A stretch of DNA of 5,488 bases from Tardiphaga sp. (lineage in GTDB: Bacteria; Pseudomonadota; Alphaproteobacteria; Rhizobiales; Xanthobacteraceae): positions 1 through 5,488 of the forward strand of contig JAQGJF010000511.1 in assembly GCA_028290765.1 (NCBI GenBank), read 5' to 3'. The position numbers and the translations under genes were made by a program. The notes beneath the pieces were generated by a model. The model worked only from the letters and a program-made list of their open reading frames with translations. It had not been told where the DNA came from and ran no database searches. The number at the start of each line of letters is the position of its first letter. Position 1 is the first letter of the stretch. Of this stretch, positions 1 through 5,488 are shown one piece after another.

Positions 1-1
1 T

Positions 2-1342
2 GGCGACTCCGGAACGCTTTGGCTGCTGGAACCGATCGAGGACAAAAACAATCTTGATAGCTGCCATGCCGCCGACCAGCTCCGGCCGCTCGCCCTCCAG
101 TGGGGCGCCAATCGGCTCTATTCGGGCCTGAGCCGGCAGCCGCGTGCCTATGCGCTGGCGACCTGTCTCAGCACGGTCTGCGACCGGCTCGACGTCGATG
201 TCGTCCGGGACTGGAATCTCGACCGGCCGGACACCTGGGGCGCTGTGGGCCACTTTGCCATCGCCAGCCGGGTCGTAAAATGTCTGTCCGACGCGGTGCC
301 GACGCTGCAAGAGCTGATGCAGAACAACGCCGGCATCGTCAGCCATGACGACGAGACCATCCTCAACGACGAATTCTCGCACATGGGAGATCTTGAAATC
401 ATCCCGATGGCCGATGTGCCGGATTTCTTCTGGAAGCACGGCAAGCAGCATCACTCGCGCGGTTCGGAAGGCCCCAACCACTTCGCCGACATGGACCAGA
501 AGCGCGACGCCGATGGCGTCGATCTTCTCACGCTCTGCGAAGACCCCGCCAACATCGACCCCAAGGTGTGGAATGATTTTTACGACAGCGTCGAGGATCT
601 GCTCGACGGCGGTCCGATATCGATGGCGCACCGCGGCCTGCTGCCGTTCCGGGTCTGGCAGATCTTCGATCAGATGGTCGAATTCGTGCGCAAGAACAAA
701 ATGCCGGAATTCGTCTGTGCCGCCGGCGTGCTGACGCATTATGTCGGCGATTCATGCCAGCCGCTGCACATCTCGTATCTGCACGACGGCGATCCGACGC
801 GTTCGAAGGTCCACACCGTTCATCACATCAAGGGCGCGAAGGCCGGAACCAGCGAAGACAAGCATATTGCGCTCGGCGCCGGTCTTCATGCCGCCTACGA
901 AGACGACATGGTCAACGCGCATCGCAAGGACATCCTCGAGGGCCTCGACAAATCCCCGCACGTGAAGGCCAGCGAACATCTTGGCTCCGGCTTCGATGCG
1001 GCCAAGGCGATGATCGACCTGATGCGCAAGACCTTCAAGGCGCTGCCACCAAAAAATATGCTCAAGACCTTTCTCGACGCCAAGAAGAACGGCGACGACA
1101 TGACCGACACGTTCTGGGACGAATATGGCGACGGCACCATCACCGCCATGCAGGATGGCACCCATCTCCTGGCCGTGCTGTGGGAAAGCGCGTGGCTGGC
1201 CGGGCAGGGCGAAAGCAAAAAGCGCGACACCTCCGCGCTAAAACCCGAGGACGCGATGGCGATCTGCGCACCGGCGGAGTTTCTGCCGTCGGTCACCATC
1301 GCGCAGATCGGCAAATTCCTCAGCAAGCCACCGCACGGGTGA
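2..1342 (+). CDS. Trypsin-like serine protease / S1-P1 nuclease-type zinc hydrolase fusion (5' end missing)
   Basis: The reading frame is open from the window edge (first whole codon at base 2) to TGA 1340-1342, giving 446 visible residues; the true start lies upstream. Visible residues 1-4 read GDSG, the catalytic-serine motif of chymotrypsin-fold proteases (Ser3). A strand-like LRPLALQWGA follows, consistent with the end of that fold; His and Asp of the triad would be off-window. From residue 79 an S1/P1 nuclease / zinc phospholipase C domain begins with WGAVGH, closely matching the mature start of P1 nuclease (WGALGH). Assignable zinc ligands are Trp79, His84, Asp138 (MADVPD), His160 (PNHFAD), His246, Asp250 and His256 (HYVGDSCQPLH), His296 and Glu300. 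Known members cleave single-stranded nucleic acids, 3'-nucleotides or phospholipids using three zinc ions. HxxxE at the last site resembles Bacillus cereus phospholipase C, whereas HxxxD is the P1 form. Substrate and cellular location cannot be told from this fragment. The zinc-domain assignment is firm, the protease assignment good but partial. Confidence 0.85.
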   Translation, partial: GDSGTLWLLEPIEDKNNLDSCHAADQLRPLALQWGANRLYSGLSRQPRAYALATCLSTVCDRLDVDVVRDWNLDRPDTWGAVGHFAIASRVVKCLSDAVPTLQELMQNNAGIVSHDDETILNDEFSHMGDLEIIPMADVPDFFWKHGKQHHSRGSEGPNHFADMDQKRDADGVDLLTLCEDPANIDPKVWNDFYDSVEDLLDGGPISMAHRGLLPFRVWQIFDQMVEFVRKNKMPEFVCAAGVLTHYVGDSCQPLHISYLHDGDPTRSKVHTVHHIKGAKAGTSEDKHIALGAGLHAAYEDDMVNAHRKDILEGLDKSPHVKASEHLGSGFDAAKAMIDLMRKTFKALPPKNMLKTFLDAKKNGDDMTDTFWDEYGDGTITAMQDGTHLLAVLWESAWLAGQGESKKRDTSALKPEDAMAICAPAEFLPSVTIAQIGKFLSKPPHG

Positions 1343-1349
1343 CGCGGGG

Positions 1350-1388
1350 CGTGTCGGGCTCCGTCCCGGCCATTCACGTCTTTCTTTC
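1350..1388 (+). terminator. Possible terminator after the protease-nuclease gene
   Basis: Eight bases after the stop codon an interrupted stem can form: CGTG (1350-1353) with CACG (1375-1378), enclosing CGGG (1355-1358) with CCCG (1365-1368). The pyrimidine run TCTTTCTTTC (1379-1388) follows. The bulge between the two stems and the mixed T/C tract make it a weak intrinsic terminator, and strength was not calculated. Confidence 0.35.
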
Positions 1389-1453
1389 GGAGGCACTTCA
1401 AGACCCGCTGTGCACCTGCCGCGACCGAAGCCGGACAGGAAACATTCGGTCGC

Positions 1454-1468
1454 CAGCTTGCCAAGCTG
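1454..1468. repeat. 15-bp palindrome CAGCTTG-C-CAAGCTG
   Basis: A perfect 7-bp inverted repeat (1454-1460 and 1462-1468) around one central base lies about 150 bp upstream of the methyltransferase start. It has the size and symmetry of a dimeric repressor site, but no cognate regulator is visible and a chance occurrence is not excluded. Confidence 0.4.
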
Positions 1469-1616
1469 AATGATTGCCGTGTGTCCGGAATCCGACGAAC
1501 GGCCAGCAGCTCAAAACGCCATTGAGCCGGCGCTCGGCTTGCACCGGAACAAATCACTCGCGCTCGAATTTACGGATGCGAGGTGGTCTGTTTCGATTGC
1601 GGGCAGGGGGACGTCC

Positions 1617-2429
1617 ATGAATCTTAAGTCAGCTATCCGACCATTGGTGCCGCCGATCCTGTACGAGGCGGCCTCTCGCCTCAAGAATTCATCAAGAGGC
1701 ACCGCGTGGCGGCCTGGCGATGCGTCCGACTCGGCGCGTCCCAATAACTTGCCGCTCAGCTACAAGCCGAGAAAGTCATTTGCTCTGGCGGCTCGAGAAG
1801 CCGGACCAGGGTATAATGATCAACGGCTGAGAAACTCGTTTCACGACAGCCCTGTTGATCTCGGACAGGGCGTCCCGGCCTTCACGGCGCCGCTGTTCGC
1901 GAGCGTCGCCGCCGCCTCGATGAGGGCTCAAGGTGCGGTGACCAAAATCGTCGATTTCGGCGGCGCATCGGGCTACCTCCGATCGTGCGTCAACACGTTC
2001 TTCGGCGACCGAATTAAATCCGATTGGACCATTGTTGAGACCGCAGATCAGGTGAATTTCGTTGGCGACCTTGGCAGAGACGATGTCAGGTATTCGGCAA
2101 CGATCGGAGCCGGCCACTACGACTTGGCGATTTTCAGCAGCAGCCTGCAATACGTCGAAGACTGGAAAACCCCACTCCGGTCAGCCGATGCCGACATGAT
2201 CTATATCGCCCGCACGCCGCTGGGCGACCACGAACAGCCCTTTCTTCAAAGTACCTTGCGAGACGGAATTGCGGTGCAATACCCCGGAAGGATCGTTGCG
2301 CGGAAGGATCTGTTCGCCGTCCTGGAGCCAACCCATAGGCTCATGTCTCTCTGGGAACTCGACGCGCATCTTTTCGAAATGGGCGTATACGACGCCCCCG
2401 CCATGCTTTGGGAACGCAGGACGTCCTGA
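1617..2429 (+). CDS. TIGR04325-family (LIC12133-type) SAM-dependent methyltransferase
   Basis: The product is 270 residues. ATG 1617 was chosen because GGGG/AGGGGG (1605-1610) sits six bases upstream and the N-terminus MNLKSAIRPLVPP resembles the usual opening of this family. A longer in-frame start at 1470 would add 49 residues that look unrelated. The SAM-binding glycine-rich loop is VDFGGASG (112-119), the acidic residue closing strand 2 is Glu141 (WTIVE), and the family-typical SSSLQYVED (174-182) and YIARTP (196-201) follow. The C-terminal QYPGRI and late LWEL are also characteristic as I recall the family. Members are generally found in O-antigen, capsule or other surface-glycan clusters and are presumed to methylate sugars, but no acceptor has been established. 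No glycosyltransferase or sugar gene accompanies it here, so it appears to be an orphan. Third codon positions seem less GC-rich than in neighbouring genes, which would fit horizontal gain. Confidence 0.8.
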   Translation: MNLKSAIRPLVPPILYEAASRLKNSSRGTAWRPGDASDSARPNNLPLSYKPRKSFALAAREAGPGYNDQRLRNSFHDSPVDLGQGVPAFTAPLFASVAAASMRAQGAVTKIVDFGGASGYLRSCVNTFFGDRIKSDWTIVETADQVNFVGDLGRDDVRYSATIGAGHYDLAIFSSSLQYVEDWKTPLRSADADMIYIARTPLGDHEQPFLQSTLRDGIAVQYPGRIVARKDLFAVLEPTHRLMSLWELDAHLFEMGVYDAPAMLWERRTS

Positions 2430-2546
2430 TCCGAAGTCAAATAAGTGTCTGATTTAGTGTGGCTCCCTTTCCTGGAGCTGGCCATCGCTGGCCTCGCGGC
2501 GGTGGCGCGAGATCGAACGATTACGCGTGTCGGTGAGGGGCATCCC

Positions 2547-2579
2547 ACCATTGAAATGGTCCATTTGATGGTCTAAATA
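2547..2579 (+). promoter_or_regulatory. Probable vapBC promoter and operator
   Basis: A perfect inverted repeat ACCATT-GA-AATGGT (2547-2560) abuts a second, CCAT-TTG-ATGG (2561-2571). ATGGTC is directly repeated at 2556-2561 and 2568-2573, 12 bp apart, close to one helical turn. A possible -35 TTGAAA (2551-2556) lies inside the first repeat, and TAAATA (2574-2579) is a weak -10 at 17-bp spacing. Antitoxins of this fold normally repress their own operon by binding such repeats over the promoter. The repeats are seen directly; the regulatory role is inferred. Confidence 0.5.
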
Positions 2580-2621
2580 TCCTAAATCGAGACGCCGACC
2601 GGTCGGGAGAAGGGCTTTGTC

Positions 2622-2879
2622 GTGAAGGTATCGGTCAGCGAAGCCAAAGGTCAGCTGACCGAATTGGTCCGGCGTGCCGAGGCAGGGGGCGAGGTCATCC
2701 TGACCCGTCACGGCCATGCCGCTGTTCGGCTGGTGCCGATCAACGCGATGCCGGATGCGAAATCCCGCAAGGCTCTGCTCGAAGCGGTTCGTGCGTCCGC
2801 AGCCGAAAAGGCGACGGCCGGTCCCTGTGCCGCGCGCAGCCAGGATTTCCTGTATGGCGATGATGGTTTGCCGGAATGA
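2622..2879 (+). CDS. vapB: VapB antitoxin, Phd/YefM family
   Basis: This 85-residue protein starts at GTG 2622, with a strong purine-rich ribosome site GGGAGAAGGG (2605-2614) seven bases upstream. Residues 1-40 have the Phd/YefM pattern: VSVSEAKGQL, ELVRRAEAGGEV, then ILTRHGHAAVRLVP. This fold dimerises to bind operator DNA. The tail (about 50-85), ending DFLYGDDGLPE, is the type that threads into a PIN toxin's active site and neutralises it. The stop overlaps the toxin start by four bases (ATGA, 2876-2879), so the pair is almost certainly cotranscribed and translationally coupled. The length is normal for the family. The family call is firm; the vapB symbol rests on the partner being a PIN toxin. 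Confidence 0.9.
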   Translation: MKVSVSEAKGQLTELVRRAEAGGEVILTRHGHAAVRLVPINAMPDAKSRKALLEAVRASAAEKATAGPCAARSQDFLYGDDGLPE

Positions 2880-3259
2880 TCGCGGTCGATACGTCGACGC
2901 TGATGGCGATCGTTCTTGGCGAACCGGACGCCGATGCCTGCATCGCGGTGCTGGAGGCCGAAACGGATCTGATGATTTCCGCTGGCACGGTGGCGGAGGC
3001 CCTGATCGTCGCCGCCCGGCGCAACGTTGCCGACGAGATGGAGCGTCTAATCGATGGGCTCGGCTTCGAGATCGTAAGTGTGACGTCGGCGTCTGCGCGG
3101 CGTATCGCTCAGGCCTATGAAAGCTGGGGCAAGGGCGTGCATCCGGCGGCGCTGAACTTCGGCGACTGCTTCGCCTATGAGGTGGCGAAGGAACATGGAT
3201 GCCGGTTGCTCTATGTCGGTGAGGATTTCAGGAAGACCGATGTGGAGAGCGTGCTCTGA
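2876..3259 (+). CDS. vapC: VapC toxin, PIN-domain ribonuclease
   Basis: A 127-residue single PIN domain of normal VapC length. The metal-binding acidic residues are all present: Asp5 (AVDTST), Glu41 (TVAEAL), Asp97 (NFGDCF) and the late Asp117 (VGEDF), followed by KTD. Family members are Mg/Mn-dependent endoribonucleases that cleave tRNA or rRNA when freed from antitoxin; which RNA this one cuts cannot be told from sequence. Its start codon overlaps the antitoxin stop and has only a weak ribosome site of its own, so translation probably depends on the upstream gene. No frameshift or missing catalytic residue is seen, so the module looks intact. A chromosomal tRNA-Asn gene lies convergently 164 bp downstream. 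Confidence 0.92.
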   Translation: MIAVDTSTLMAIVLGEPDADACIAVLEAETDLMISAGTVAEALIVAARRNVADEMERLIDGLGFEIVSVTSASARRIAQAYESWGKGVHPAALNFGDCFAYEVAKEHGCRLLYVGEDFRKTDVESVL

Positions 3260-3423
3260 GAATCTCGCCGAGACCAACCGCGAAATCGTCGGACATGTGA
3301 AACTAATGCTGTGGGACGGTGCAGGTGGCGCGGCGCTCGGCATCTGCGGGTGGATTTATTTGACGAAGTGATCGACATCGACGCCAAAAATGTCGTGAGA
3401 TTTCAGGCGGAAAAAGCGGTGTT

Positions 3424-3498
3424 TGGCTCCCCGGGCTGGATTCGAACCAGCGACCATTCGATTAACAGTCGAATGCTCTACCGCTGAGCTACCGAGGA
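3424..3498 (-). tRNA. tRNA-Asn (anticodon GTT)
   Basis: Read on the minus strand, 75 nt fold into a complete cloverleaf. The acceptor TCCTCGG pairs with CCGGGGA (one T-G wobble). The D arm is GCTC-AGCGGTA-GAGC, the anticodon arm TTCGA-CTGTTAA-TCGAA with anticodon GTT, and the T arm GCTGG-TTCGAAT-CCAGC. The discriminator is G and CCA is encoded (3424-3426). The gene decodes AAC/AAU. It is convergent with vapBC, whose genes lie on its 3' side. Confidence 0.97.
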
Positions 3499-3528
3499 AC
3501 AGGCGAAACAGGCGTTCGCGAATGGCTG

Positions 3529-3556
3529 CGTATAACAAAGCCGCCTTGGCTTGCAA
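3529..3556 (-). promoter_or_regulatory. Probable promoter of tRNA-Asn
   Basis: On the minus strand a TTGCAA -35 element (3551-3556) is followed, after 16 bp, by a TATACG -10 element (3529-3534). Transcription would begin about 25 nt before the mature tRNA 5' end at 3498, a normal leader length for RNase P processing. The elements match the sigma-70-type consensus at several positions each; no experimental support is available. Confidence 0.5.
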
Positions 3557-3765
3557 AGCGGGAAATGCGCCGGGCCATCCGGGGTCGACATACCGGGAAA
3601 ACCTTACGAAACCTGCAATTTTTCAGTGTTTTTCGCGATTAGGGGCCGTTGATCGGTGGGGCCAGAGTGGGGCAGGCCGCCGCCAAATGCCATGGACTGA
3701 TCGCGAAAGCGTCTCATTCACTGCCGAGACTGGTGGTCAACCGAGTCGATTTTCGAGGTGATTGG

Positions 3766-3960
3766 ATGCCAGGCAACCAGACGAATCTCGCAAGACCCCA
3801 TTTCACGAGGCCGGATCTATCGATCGACTGGCGCGCGATGCCCCAGGTGAGCGATGACGAGTGCCTCGTCCGGCTGGAGAAGGCGGTCCAGAATCATGAC
3901 CCCGAATCGCTGGACGAAGTGGCGTGGCTGATCGGGCGATTGGCCGTTCCGATCGAATAG
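3766..3960 (+). CDS. Small hypothetical protein, 64 residues
   Basis: I do not recognise a family. ATG 3766 is preceded by GAGG (3755-3758) at seven bases, a plausible ribosome site; an upstream in-frame ATG at 3649 would give 103 residues but lacks such a site. Codon third positions are mostly G or C from about residue 15 onward, as in a translated gene. The C-terminal half (from about SDDECLVRLEKAV to LDEVAWLIGRLAVPIE) is likely to form two amphipathic helices rich in acidic residues. There is no signal peptide or membrane segment. It is flanked by the tRNA-Asn promoter and pcm-like gene and stands alone. It is probably cytoplasmic if real. Confidence 0.55.
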   Translation: MPGNQTNLARPHFTRPDLSIDWRAMPQVSDDECLVRLEKAVQNHDPESLDEVAWLIGRLAVPIE

Positions 3961-3971
3961 GCATTTGAACA

Positions 3972-4010
3972 CCGCCTTGGGCGGCGGCGATGATGGCCGG
4001 CCGCGGTTTT
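3972..4010 (+). terminator. Weak possible terminator after the 64-residue gene
   Basis: CCGCC-TTG-GGCGG (3972-3984) forms a tight 5-bp hairpin 11 bases after the stop. Alternatively GCGGC (3981-3985) pairs with GCCGC (4000-4004) just before GGTTTT (4005-4010). The two stems exclude each other and neither is long, so termination is uncertain. Confidence 0.25.
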
Positions 4011-4147
4011 AAGCTGCGATTGGCGGGCGTGCTGCGGTGGCTGCCGCCATCACACGCCGCGATGTTGCGTTTTGGCGAACCTTGCATCAAAGATGGCGCC
4101 ATCCGGGTTGCTGCGTGCGCAGCTCCGCTTGATTGCAAGGATCGCCA

Positions 4148-4813
4148 ATGTCCGACTTTTCGACCGCCCGCCAGAAAATGGTCGATTGTCAGGTTCGCCC
4201 CAGCGATGTGACGGATTTGCGTATCATCGACGCGATGATCGCGGTGCCGCGTGAGCTGTTCGTCCCGGAAGACCGGCGCGCGCTGGCCTATCTGGATCTC
4301 GACCTGAATGTCAGCAGCGAACCCGGTGCGCCGAAGCGCTTCCTGATCAAGCCAGCGGTGCTCGCGCGGATGCTGCAGGCCGCCGACATCAAGGATACCG
4401 ACAACGTCCTGGTCGTCGGTTGCGCCAGCGGCTATTCGGTCGCCGTGGTGGCGCGAATCACTAGCCGGGTGACTGCCACCGAGAGCGAACCGTCCTTGGC
4501 GGCGATGGCCACCGAGTGCCTCGCGAAGGCCGGCGTCGTCTACCCCGTGCGCACCGCCGCAGCGGCGGAAGGCGATACCTCCGGTGCACCCTACGATGTC
4601 ATCGTCCTGGACGGCGCAACCGAAATTGTTCCCGATCGGCTCTATCGGCAGCTTCGCGATGGTGGACGCCTGGTCGGCGTTTTCGCTACCGGCCAGCCGC
4701 CCCGCGCCGAGATCGTGACGCATTCCCACGCCGACTTCGGGAACCGGACACTTTTTGACGCCACCGCGCCGGTTTTGCCCGGGCTGGAGCGGGAAGCCGC
4801 TTTCGTTTTCTAG
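4148..4813 (+). CDS. pcm: Divergent protein-L-isoaspartate O-methyltransferase-like protein
   Basis: The product is 221 residues, close to the usual PIMT length. ATG 4148 has AAGGA (4137-4141) six bases upstream. The N-terminal helix region MSDFSTARQKMVDCQVRPSDV and IAVPRELFVPE (31-41) are typical of alphaproteobacterial PIMT-like proteins. SAM-binding motif I is VLVVGCASGY (87-96), and a later strand is YDVIVLDGA (149-157), followed by LYRQLRDGGRLVGVF (165-179). Classical PIMTs repair isoaspartate in aged proteins and carry a conserved T-I-S-x-P loop at the substrate site. Here the corresponding stretch is FLIKP (65-69), so the catalytic serine position is not conserved and repair activity is doubtful. 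The tolC-family gene follows after about 195 bp in the same direction. The symbol denotes the family, not a proven activity. Confidence 0.8.
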   Translation: MSDFSTARQKMVDCQVRPSDVTDLRIIDAMIAVPRELFVPEDRRALAYLDLDLNVSSEPGAPKRFLIKPAVLARMLQAADIKDTDNVLVVGCASGYSVAVVARITSRVTATESEPSLAAMATECLAKAGVVYPVRTAAAAEGDTSGAPYDVIVLDGATEIVPDRLYRQLRDGGRLVGVFATGQPPRAEIVTHSHADFGNRTLFDATAPVLPGLEREAAFVF

Positions 4814-4850
4814 TTCCTATCAACCTGTCGTCTGCGTTCGATATCAAGAG

Positions 4851-4923
4851 TGTGGCCCGGATGCCCCACATCAGGAGTTTCCGTCGGGAAACACGGGCAG
4901 GGGTTCCGTCTCGCGTTTGCGAG
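4851..4923 (+). repeat. Three consecutive hairpins between the pcm-like and tolC genes
   Basis: Three stems are visible in order. TGTGG/CCACA spans 4851-4870 with a 10-nt loop. GTTTCC-GTCG-GGAAAC (4877-4892) is a perfect 6-bp stem with a tetraloop. CTCGC-GTTT-GCGAG (4910-4923) has five pairs and a tetraloop. None is followed by a T run, so classical intrinsic termination is unlikely; a structured leader for tolC or a Rho-influenced 3' end of pcm is possible. Confidence 0.4.
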
Positions 4924-5008
4924 TAATAAGGTGAGTAGGGACTCAATAGAGGCAATACCCGACTCCAGGGCGCTGGAGCGGGCGAACGACATGGATGGAT
5001 TACCTGGG

Positions 5009-5488
5009 ATGGGTGGCGTGAAAGTCGTTACCGGAGCTGCGGCTGCGGTCCTTCTACTGGCGTTTATCGGGACAACGCCTGTCCTCGCCGACACGATTGA
5101 GGCGGCGCTGGTCCGTGCCTATCAGAACAATCCGCAGCTCAACGCGCAGCGCGCCTCGGTGCGGGCCACCGACGAGGGGGTGCCGCAGGCATTGTCGGGT
5201 TATCGCCCCAAGGTCGCGGTCACCGCGAGCGGCGGCTATCAATACAGCGACGTGATTTCCGGCTCCGGTGGGGCGGGCAACTCGGTGCATCTCCACGGTG
5301 TGCAGGTCCCGCGCGCCGTCGGTGCGACCATTACCCAGACGCTGTTCAACGGCCAGCAAACCGCCAACCGAACCCGGGCGGCGGAAGGCCAGGTCTCGGG
5401 CGCGCGTGAAGGCCTGCGCGTCCTGGAACAGACGGTTCTGCTGTCGGCCGCCACGATTTACATGGATTATTTGCGCGATTCGGCGATC
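5009..5488 (+). CDS. tolC: TolC-family outer-membrane efflux/secretion protein (3' end missing)
   Basis: 160 codons are visible before the right edge; the full family length is roughly 430-500 residues. The chosen start ATG 5009 gives a signal peptide: short n-region with Lys5, hydrophobic AAAAVLLLAFIG, and cleavage likely after PVLA at residue 27, just before DTIEAAL. ATG 4991, with GGAG 12 bases upstream, is a possible alternative that adds six residues. The mature start follows the family closely: AYQNNPQLNAQRASVRATDE and LSGYRPKV form the first coiled-coil hairpin, and VGATITQTLFNG with the later TVLLSAATIYMDYLRD continue the repeat. Such proteins trimerise into an outer-membrane channel with a periplasmic helical tunnel and serve RND/ABC efflux pumps or type I secretion. 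No inner-membrane partner is visible here. Confidence 0.93.
   Translation, partial: MGGVKVVTGAAAAVLLLAFIGTTPVLADTIEAALVRAYQNNPQLNAQRASVRATDEGVPQALSGYRPKVAVTASGGYQYSDVISGSGGAGNSVHLHGVQVPRAVGATITQTLFNGQQTANRTRAAEGQVSGAREGLRVLEQTVLLSAATIYMDYLRDSAI

Follow-up and report, generated by a model that had tools for sequence, protein, structure and literature searches.

How can a trinuclear-zinc hydrolase work when the tryptophan that should open its mature chain lies inside a longer polypeptide? The question is raised by the first gene in a 5,488-nucleotide stretch of Tardiphaga sp. DNA (contig JAQGJF010000511.1, positions 1 to 5,488; hereafter, the window), in which the end of a serine protease is followed by a hydrolase domain with the predicted fold of phospholipase C (PLC) and the S1-P1 nucleases. 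Both halves are of known kinds, and sequence comparison places the fusion in a broad family of which we found no earlier description. We propose, with about an even chance of being right, that the single chain is a zymogen cut just before the Trp, most plausibly by the attached protease.

The open reading frame (ORF) of 446 amino acids at 2..1342 on the forward strand has no start inside the window, that is, it is open at the window's 5' end. GDSG forms residues 1 to 4 (nucleotides 2 to 13) and WGAVGH residues 79 to 84 (nucleotides 236 to 253), with a stop-free stretch between them. The motif positions given in the initial annotation, WGxxGH at residues 79 to 84 downstream of GDSG in a single frame, are confirmed on this ORF, with neither a stop nor a frameshift between the domains. 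Differences from the gene of the closest genome relative (L001) fall on the three codon positions as 64/50/180 over 440 codons, a skew indicating that the window ORF is a real gene under protein-level constraint. Its parts are as follows.

2..1342, forward strand: protease/zinc-hydrolase fusion gene, 3' part (446 codons plus stop); the 5' half lies outside the window
2..226, forward strand: predicted C-terminal end of the NAL1-like serine protease, from GDSG to residue 75 (GDSG and QWG motifs; NAL1 match of the L001 AlphaFold2 [AF2] model)
8..10, forward strand: predicted catalytic Ser, window residue 3 (L001 Ser343), kept in 337/338 relatives covering the position
227..238, forward strand: join Pro76-Asp77-Thr78-Trp79, with the putative cut at Thr78/Trp79 (conservation; low predicted local distance difference test score [pLDDT] at L001 419-422)
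236..1339, forward strand: predicted trinuclear-zinc hydrolase domain, PLC/S1-P1 nuclease fold, from Trp79 on
251..253, forward strand: predicted metal ligand His84 (L001 position 427, 380/380)
413..415, forward strand: predicted metal ligand Asp138 (L001 position 481, D in 372/377 covered)
479..481, forward strand: predicted metal ligand His160 (L001 position 503, 371/372)
737..769, forward strand: predicted metal ligands His246, Asp250 and His256 in HYVGDSCQPLH (L001 589, 593 and 599; 356/358, 355/358 and 357/358)
887..901, forward strand: predicted metal ligands His296 and Glu300 in HxxxE (L001 635 and 639; 356/357 and 357/357)

Family breadth and distribution

Homologs with the same domain order, for which the initial annotation had suggested a search, were readily found. 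A scan of a genome collection yielded 23 loci with relatives at 33 to 78% identity, and in all 23 the reading frame extends upstream of the region matching the window; the full-length database protein P0003 (799 amino acids) shares 91.7% identity with the window protein across 445 residues. The loci were assigned to alpha-, beta- and gammaproteobacteria, Acidobacteria, Thermoanaerobaculia, Myxococcota, Ignavibacteria and Ktedonobacter, although several of them are metagenome bins and some taxon labels may be wrong. Nor is the family small: a search with the L001 protein gave 1678 database proteins at E ≤ 0.001 among 7997 scored, of which the 120 best were examined. Searches with a profile of the zinc half (A1) and with the protease half produced 470 and 530 matches, respectively, the best 120 being listed in each case. 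The combined set comprises 382 sequences, 380 of which cover the Trp; it consists of best-scoring matches only and holds locus duplicates (for instance, P0272 is 100% identical to the protease half of L012). A non-redundant selection retained 173 of 234 near-full-length sequences, and the input alignments for AF2, of 128 (A3) and 109 (A4) rows, were hand-picked from these and other matches.

At finer taxonomic scale, the distribution is patchy. Among 248 genomes in the family of G003, 8 gave a match: 3 near full length, including G003 itself, one split between two frames, and four that are partial or weak. The Nal1_C domain (PF25819) was detected in 3 of 251 genomes in the phylum of G007, G007 itself among them. 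The Ktedonobacter strain SOSP1-85 carries two copies of the fusion gene (L015 and L019). In L042/L047, the protease part contains one stop and the zinc part lies in another frame, representing either a broken copy or a sequencing error. Literature searches aimed at the fusion or its system returned no title or abstract describing it, with subscription papers largely outside their reach.

The protease domain

In an alignment of the 23 loci and 120 database matches, the His, Asp and Ser of the catalytic triad, as well as the Trp, are each present in 143/143 sequences. Of the triad, only the Ser falls inside the window, so that the His and Asp of the window protein are deduced from the upstream parts of its relatives, where the initial annotation had advised looking for them. 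The single exception for Ser among 338 sequences, P0143, looks like a frameshifted fragment. The initial annotation had spoken of a chymotrypsin-fold protease ending just before the Trp. A protease domain with a full triad is indeed found; its type, however, is NAL1-like rather than generic chymotrypsin, the relatives displaying both the predicted NAL1 protease fold and the Nal1_C domain. The expected end of the domain is borne out as well: in most rows the match between the AF2 model of L001 and rice NAL1 runs to residue 418 (equivalent to window residue 75), in the others to 414 or 416, with the Trp at 422. NAL1 is a hexamer. No papers on NAL1 structures were found in the literature searched.

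The zinc-hydrolase domain

The predicted models of the C-terminal half match the all-helical fold of PLC and P1 nuclease, and the Trp plus eight predicted His/Asp/Glu metal ligands are all present by motif and alignment, the last ligand motif, HxxxE, occurring in 357/357 relatives that cover it. Assignment to an established family is less clear-cut. At this motif, HxxxE would be expected of zinc-dependent PLCs proper (PF00882) and HxxxD of S1-P1 nucleases proper (PF02265). PF02265 scores 14.3, 13.6, 25.4, 20.7 and 12.9 bits in relatives against a cut-off of 29.5, with none listed for L011, and the best PF00882 score is 20.2 bits against a cut-off of 26.8. Precomputed PF02265 and PF00882 annotations are attached to 25 and 10, respectively, of the 120 listed zinc-half matches. 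Because the A1 profile aligned with an ordinary S1-P1 nuclease over just 21 columns, the ligand map rests on motifs, alignments and fold matches. The "zinc nuclease" of the initial annotation thus stands as a zinc-hydrolase fold with its ligand set, whereas nuclease identity is not established, the predicted fold matching PLC and S1 nuclease equally; judging from these models, the partner of the protease may be a phospholipase or a nuclease, acting on phospholipid or nucleic acid. The S1-P1 nuclease used in the profile comparison is itself a neighbor of a fusion gene: in the Mesorhizobium sophorae locus L005 its gene directly follows the fusion, at 7390-8253; the encoded protein matches PF02265 at E 4.9e-48 and begins with a stretch resembling a signal peptide.

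Joint conservation of the two domains

The pairwise identities of the two halves correlate with r 0.86 over 27,261 pairs, as expected if the halves travel together. The protease Ser is missing in 45 of the 120 listed zinc-half matches, 44 of which retain at least 11 residues before the Trp; the remaining one, P0234, begins after the Trp. Judging by their sequences, most of these matches look like truncated or frameshifted gene calls rather than stand-alone domains, although the contigs of several (P0177, P0192, P0199 and P0233) are long, and split genes are possible.

The join and the internal tryptophan

In the enzymes with which the hydrolase half is compared, the main chain of the first residue is part of the metal site. 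The mature chain of S1 nuclease begins at Trp21 once the signal sequence is removed, and the main chain of Trp21 binds zinc (PMC5201275; here and below, papers given by PMC number were available in part). In Listeria PC-PLC, a proenzyme cut by the separate protease Mpl, metal is bound by the W1 main chain, substitutions of W1 other than Phe lower activity, and one extra residue before W1 is stated to abolish it (PMC10576769, citing its ref. 51). By analogy, tying the Trp into a peptide bond would presumably disrupt the metal site. In the fusion family, the encoded Trp is internal, at residue 387 to 424 across the 23 loci, rather than the first residue of the chain. The gap between the end of the predicted protease fold and the Trp is three residues in the best NAL1 rows (L001 418/422; L014 393/397) and three to seven over all 11 NAL1 rows of each of these two models.

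This short join is strongly conserved. The Trp is invariant (380/380), position -2 (P2) is Asp or Glu in 348/380 relatives, and position -1 (P1) is Thr in 196/380 and Tyr in 178/380, the two together accounting for 374/380. The broken copy L042/L047 reads S-G-T-W at this point. The AF2 model of L001 has a mean pLDDT of 90.8, with residues 419-422 below 50; other runs below 50 are confined to the N-terminal tail (1-3 and 16-22). In L014, the join block 391-400 averages 66, with no run below 50. Low confidence at the join is thus partly repeated across the models and not unique to it; what is unusual about these modeled segments is that residues predicted so poorly are so conserved.

No sign of the usual means of freeing the Trp is seen in the fusion family. 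None of the 234 near-full-length relatives reaches a hydropathy of 2.0 over 12 residues of the N-terminal region (highest value, 1.69), in what is a crude test based on a hydropathy maximum, with a self-chosen cut of 2.0 and one control, the L005 S1-P1 nuclease, barely passing at 2.01. The control protein has CLA before its WGDRGH motif.

The conserved acidic residue also underlies the strongest rival to a zymogen. The metal site might work without the free amine, as the initial annotation had raised; the Trp carbonyl and either the -2 carboxylate or water would then serve as substitute, in a chain that is never cut. The prevalence of Asp/Glu at -2 provides an obvious substitute ligand, and P1 and P2 are conserved in the manner of a structural element. 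However, the carboxylate is missing in the other 32/380 relatives, which have Asn, Gln, Leu, Pro or Tyr instead and retain every triad and ligand residue within the range they cover; the join is modeled at low confidence, and the Listeria PC-PLC precedent, in which a single added residue is reported to abolish activity (PMC10576769), also argues against an amine-free site. These points weaken the alternative, and we regard it as rather doubtful.

Proposed activation of the hydrolase

In the zymogen reading, a NAL1-type protease runs almost without a linker into a trinuclear-zinc phosphoesterase, and in the uncut chain the Trp alpha-amino group and carbonyl, meant for one metal, would be tied up in the peptide bond. 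The protease would adjoin the metal site, leaving the hydrolase with little or no activity. Cleavage at [D/E]-[T/Y] / W-G would create an N-terminal Trp and switch the hydrolase on, the most plausible cutter being the attached protease, acting in cis or between the subunits of an oligomer such as the NAL1 hexamer. The reading builds on the observed fusion, the triad and metal ligands of the relatives, their joint conservation and the short join, together with the predicted folds. Inactivity of the uncut chain is extrapolated from Listeria PC-PLC; the cut and its agent are likewise inferred, as are trigger and substrate. Tentatively, the design could go further and make the gene a one-gene latent effector, in which the NAL1-type protease, activated through oligomerization, would trigger a self-directed nuclease or phospholipase. 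The N-terminal amine made by the cut would bind the third metal, so that proteolysis and completion of the metal site would be one chemical step.

Several observations weigh against a cut before the Trp. The 8cqm rows do not agree on the Trp register, placing Trp397 of L014 on residue 10 and Gly423 of L001 on residue 1. Low confidence is not special to the join, since block 381-390 of L001 averages a pLDDT of 54, and blocks 61-70 and 131-140 of L014, at 67 and 66, resemble its join block; moreover, low pLDDT at such a join can come from strain alone. The alternation of Thr and Tyr at P1 is odd for one protease specificity, and the divergent L041 has Tyr-Ile preceding the Trp (Y-I-W). Mutual information between the join and the protease pocket (250 sequences; effective number, Neff, 177) is dominated by a clade split, from which covariation is inseparable. 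The Trp itself may be conserved through packing of its indole alone. P0220, either an assembly error or a real protease-less variant, keeps the N-terminal segment, the join, the Trp and the zinc domain without the protease core. Finally, the conservation counts derive from best-scoring listed matches that include duplicates, so that distant relatives with a dead protease or a stand-alone hydrolase could be missed.

Gene neighborhoods and further alternatives

No neighbor gene family is shared by more than 3 of the 23 loci; in L002, L018 and L022 the selection of neighboring ORFs settled on longer ones that overlap the fusion gene, which was thus seen in 20 loci. The 30 neighbors annotated with Pfam encode metabolic enzymes, an Hsp90, a subtilase, an M4 peptidase, two cyclase-type proteins and proteins of no recognized kind, with no NLR operon among them. 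The suggestion in the initial annotation that the arrangement belongs to defense or toxin proteins is therefore unsupported by the neighbor genes examined.

The lack of a conserved partner gene that could serve as a trigger is consistent with constitutive maturation, in which one cut would be made during or just after folding, the halves would stay together as an always-active two-chain enzyme, and the protease would then be a spent or structural partner. Chymotrypsin-fold proteases that cut their own C-terminus exist, as in the alphavirus capsid, which counts in favor of this possibility. Nevertheless, with no signal peptide detected by the crude test, a nuclease or phospholipase that is always active in the cytosol would presumably damage the cell, and we consider constitutive maturation unlikely. 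Alternatively, the fusion might serve co-localization, with another protease exposing the Trp and the NAL1-like domain acting on other proteins, as rice NAL1 does. Activation of Listeria PC-PLC by a separate protease (PMC10576769) agrees with such an arrangement, whereas the absence of a conserved neighbor fit to be the partner protease, in genes spread over several phyla, makes it improbable.

The PADLOC model PDLC03017 ("trypsin-like") matches 5/5 relatives (4e-22 to 2e-40) and both halves of the fusion when these are scanned apart. Across 398 genomes of the phylum of G003, it gave 2 matches, G003 itself and G101, the latter in a different protein (L034). There it also matches both halves of a 702-amino acid ORF; the model is non-specific, so we rejected it as proof of a defense role and do not call the fusion a defense system. 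That the fusion is the effector of a CARD-NLR or NACHT-type anti-phage system, like LypC, accordingly seems hardly probable at all: beyond the PDLC03017 matches, LypC likewise has its protease ahead of an endonuclease, and phospholipase-bearing CARD-NLR variants are mentioned (PMC13236601), yet the annotated neighbors include no NLR operon, and the authors of that work aligned the LypC nuclease with NucA/EndA-type enzymes.

Individual loci provided further observations. In L034, the 702-amino acid ORF (1420-3528), which on our reading has a trypsin-like part and a P-loop-like motif, overlaps an ORF at 197-1423 that scores E 9.7e-80 to the PADLOC "nacht" model (PDLC03010); the pair is possibly a CARD-NLR-like operon. 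The Ktedonobacter locus L016 carries a STAND-like NTPase gene and a separate leucine-rich repeat gene on the opposite strand, with homologs in L019, and in L001 an Hsp90-family gene (6114-7979) lies directly 3' of the fusion. Downstream of the fusion gene, the window contains the following features.

1470..2429, forward strand: 319-amino acid ORF, TIGR04325 methyltransferase family at 58.7 bits, below the cut-off of 80; no Pfam match
2622..2879 and 2876..3259, forward strand: two overlapping genes, the first for a Phd/YefM-type antitoxin (PF02604, E 8.7e-12), the second for a PIN-domain protein (PF01850, E 4.4e-17); by their sequences they look like a toxin-antitoxin pair
3424..3498, reverse strand: tRNA-Asn (gtt), downstream of the PIN gene and on the opposite strand to it
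4133..4813, forward strand: PCMT-type methyltransferase gene
4850..5488, forward strand: first part of a TolC-type outer membrane efflux gene, following the PCMT-type gene and running off the window

Comparison with known systems

If the cut occurs, the fusion would be a very direct zymogen design, in which a metal ligand is masked by a peptide bond. The principle of protease-activated pro-nucleases, shown in Hachiman and AVAST, would then extend to a single gene, and the crop-yield protease NAL1 would gain bacterial relatives that carry a candidate substrate in the same chain.

The protease half shares, by prediction, the fold of rice NARROW LEAF 1 (NAL1; Nal1_C, PF25819; PDB 7y77, 8pmi and 8pmg). 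The NAL1 chains matched, however, are without a zinc-hydrolase domain, their matched part ending at 447-451, where the join of the fusion begins. On the hydrolase side, the bacterial PC-PLCs (Listeria PlcB and B. cereus PLC; PF00882) are secreted, and the Listeria enzyme, in the part of the source available, loses a 26-residue propeptide to a separate protease; in the fusion, no signal peptide is seen by the crude test, and what stands before the Trp is an entire protease domain. Among S1-P1 nucleases (S1 and SmNuc1; PF02265), Trp21 of S1 becomes exposed once the signal sequence is cleaved off (PMC5201275), and SmNuc1 has HxxxD where the fusion has HxxxE. PF02265 scores lie below cut-off in five of six relatives, those for which one is listed.

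The closest parallels in principle come from proteases coupled to nucleases. As described in the available part of Tuck et al. 2025 (PMC12799240), a trypsin-like protease activates the latent metal nuclease of the HamM/Avs systems. That nuclease is of the metallo-beta-lactamase type and encoded by a separate gene, whereas the fusion is one chain with a predicted PLC/S1 fold, and gating of the HamM/Avs nuclease is attributed to insertions or loops near the site rather than to a missing N-terminus. LypC of Caulobacter, like the fusion, combines an N-terminal trypsin-like peptidase and a C-terminal putative endonuclease in one chain, a likeness by description only, its endonuclease having been aligned with NucA/EndA/Dns; LypC belongs to a three-gene CARD-NLR-like system in which, according to the accessible portion of the report (PMC13236601), the nuclease residues are dispensable for lysis.
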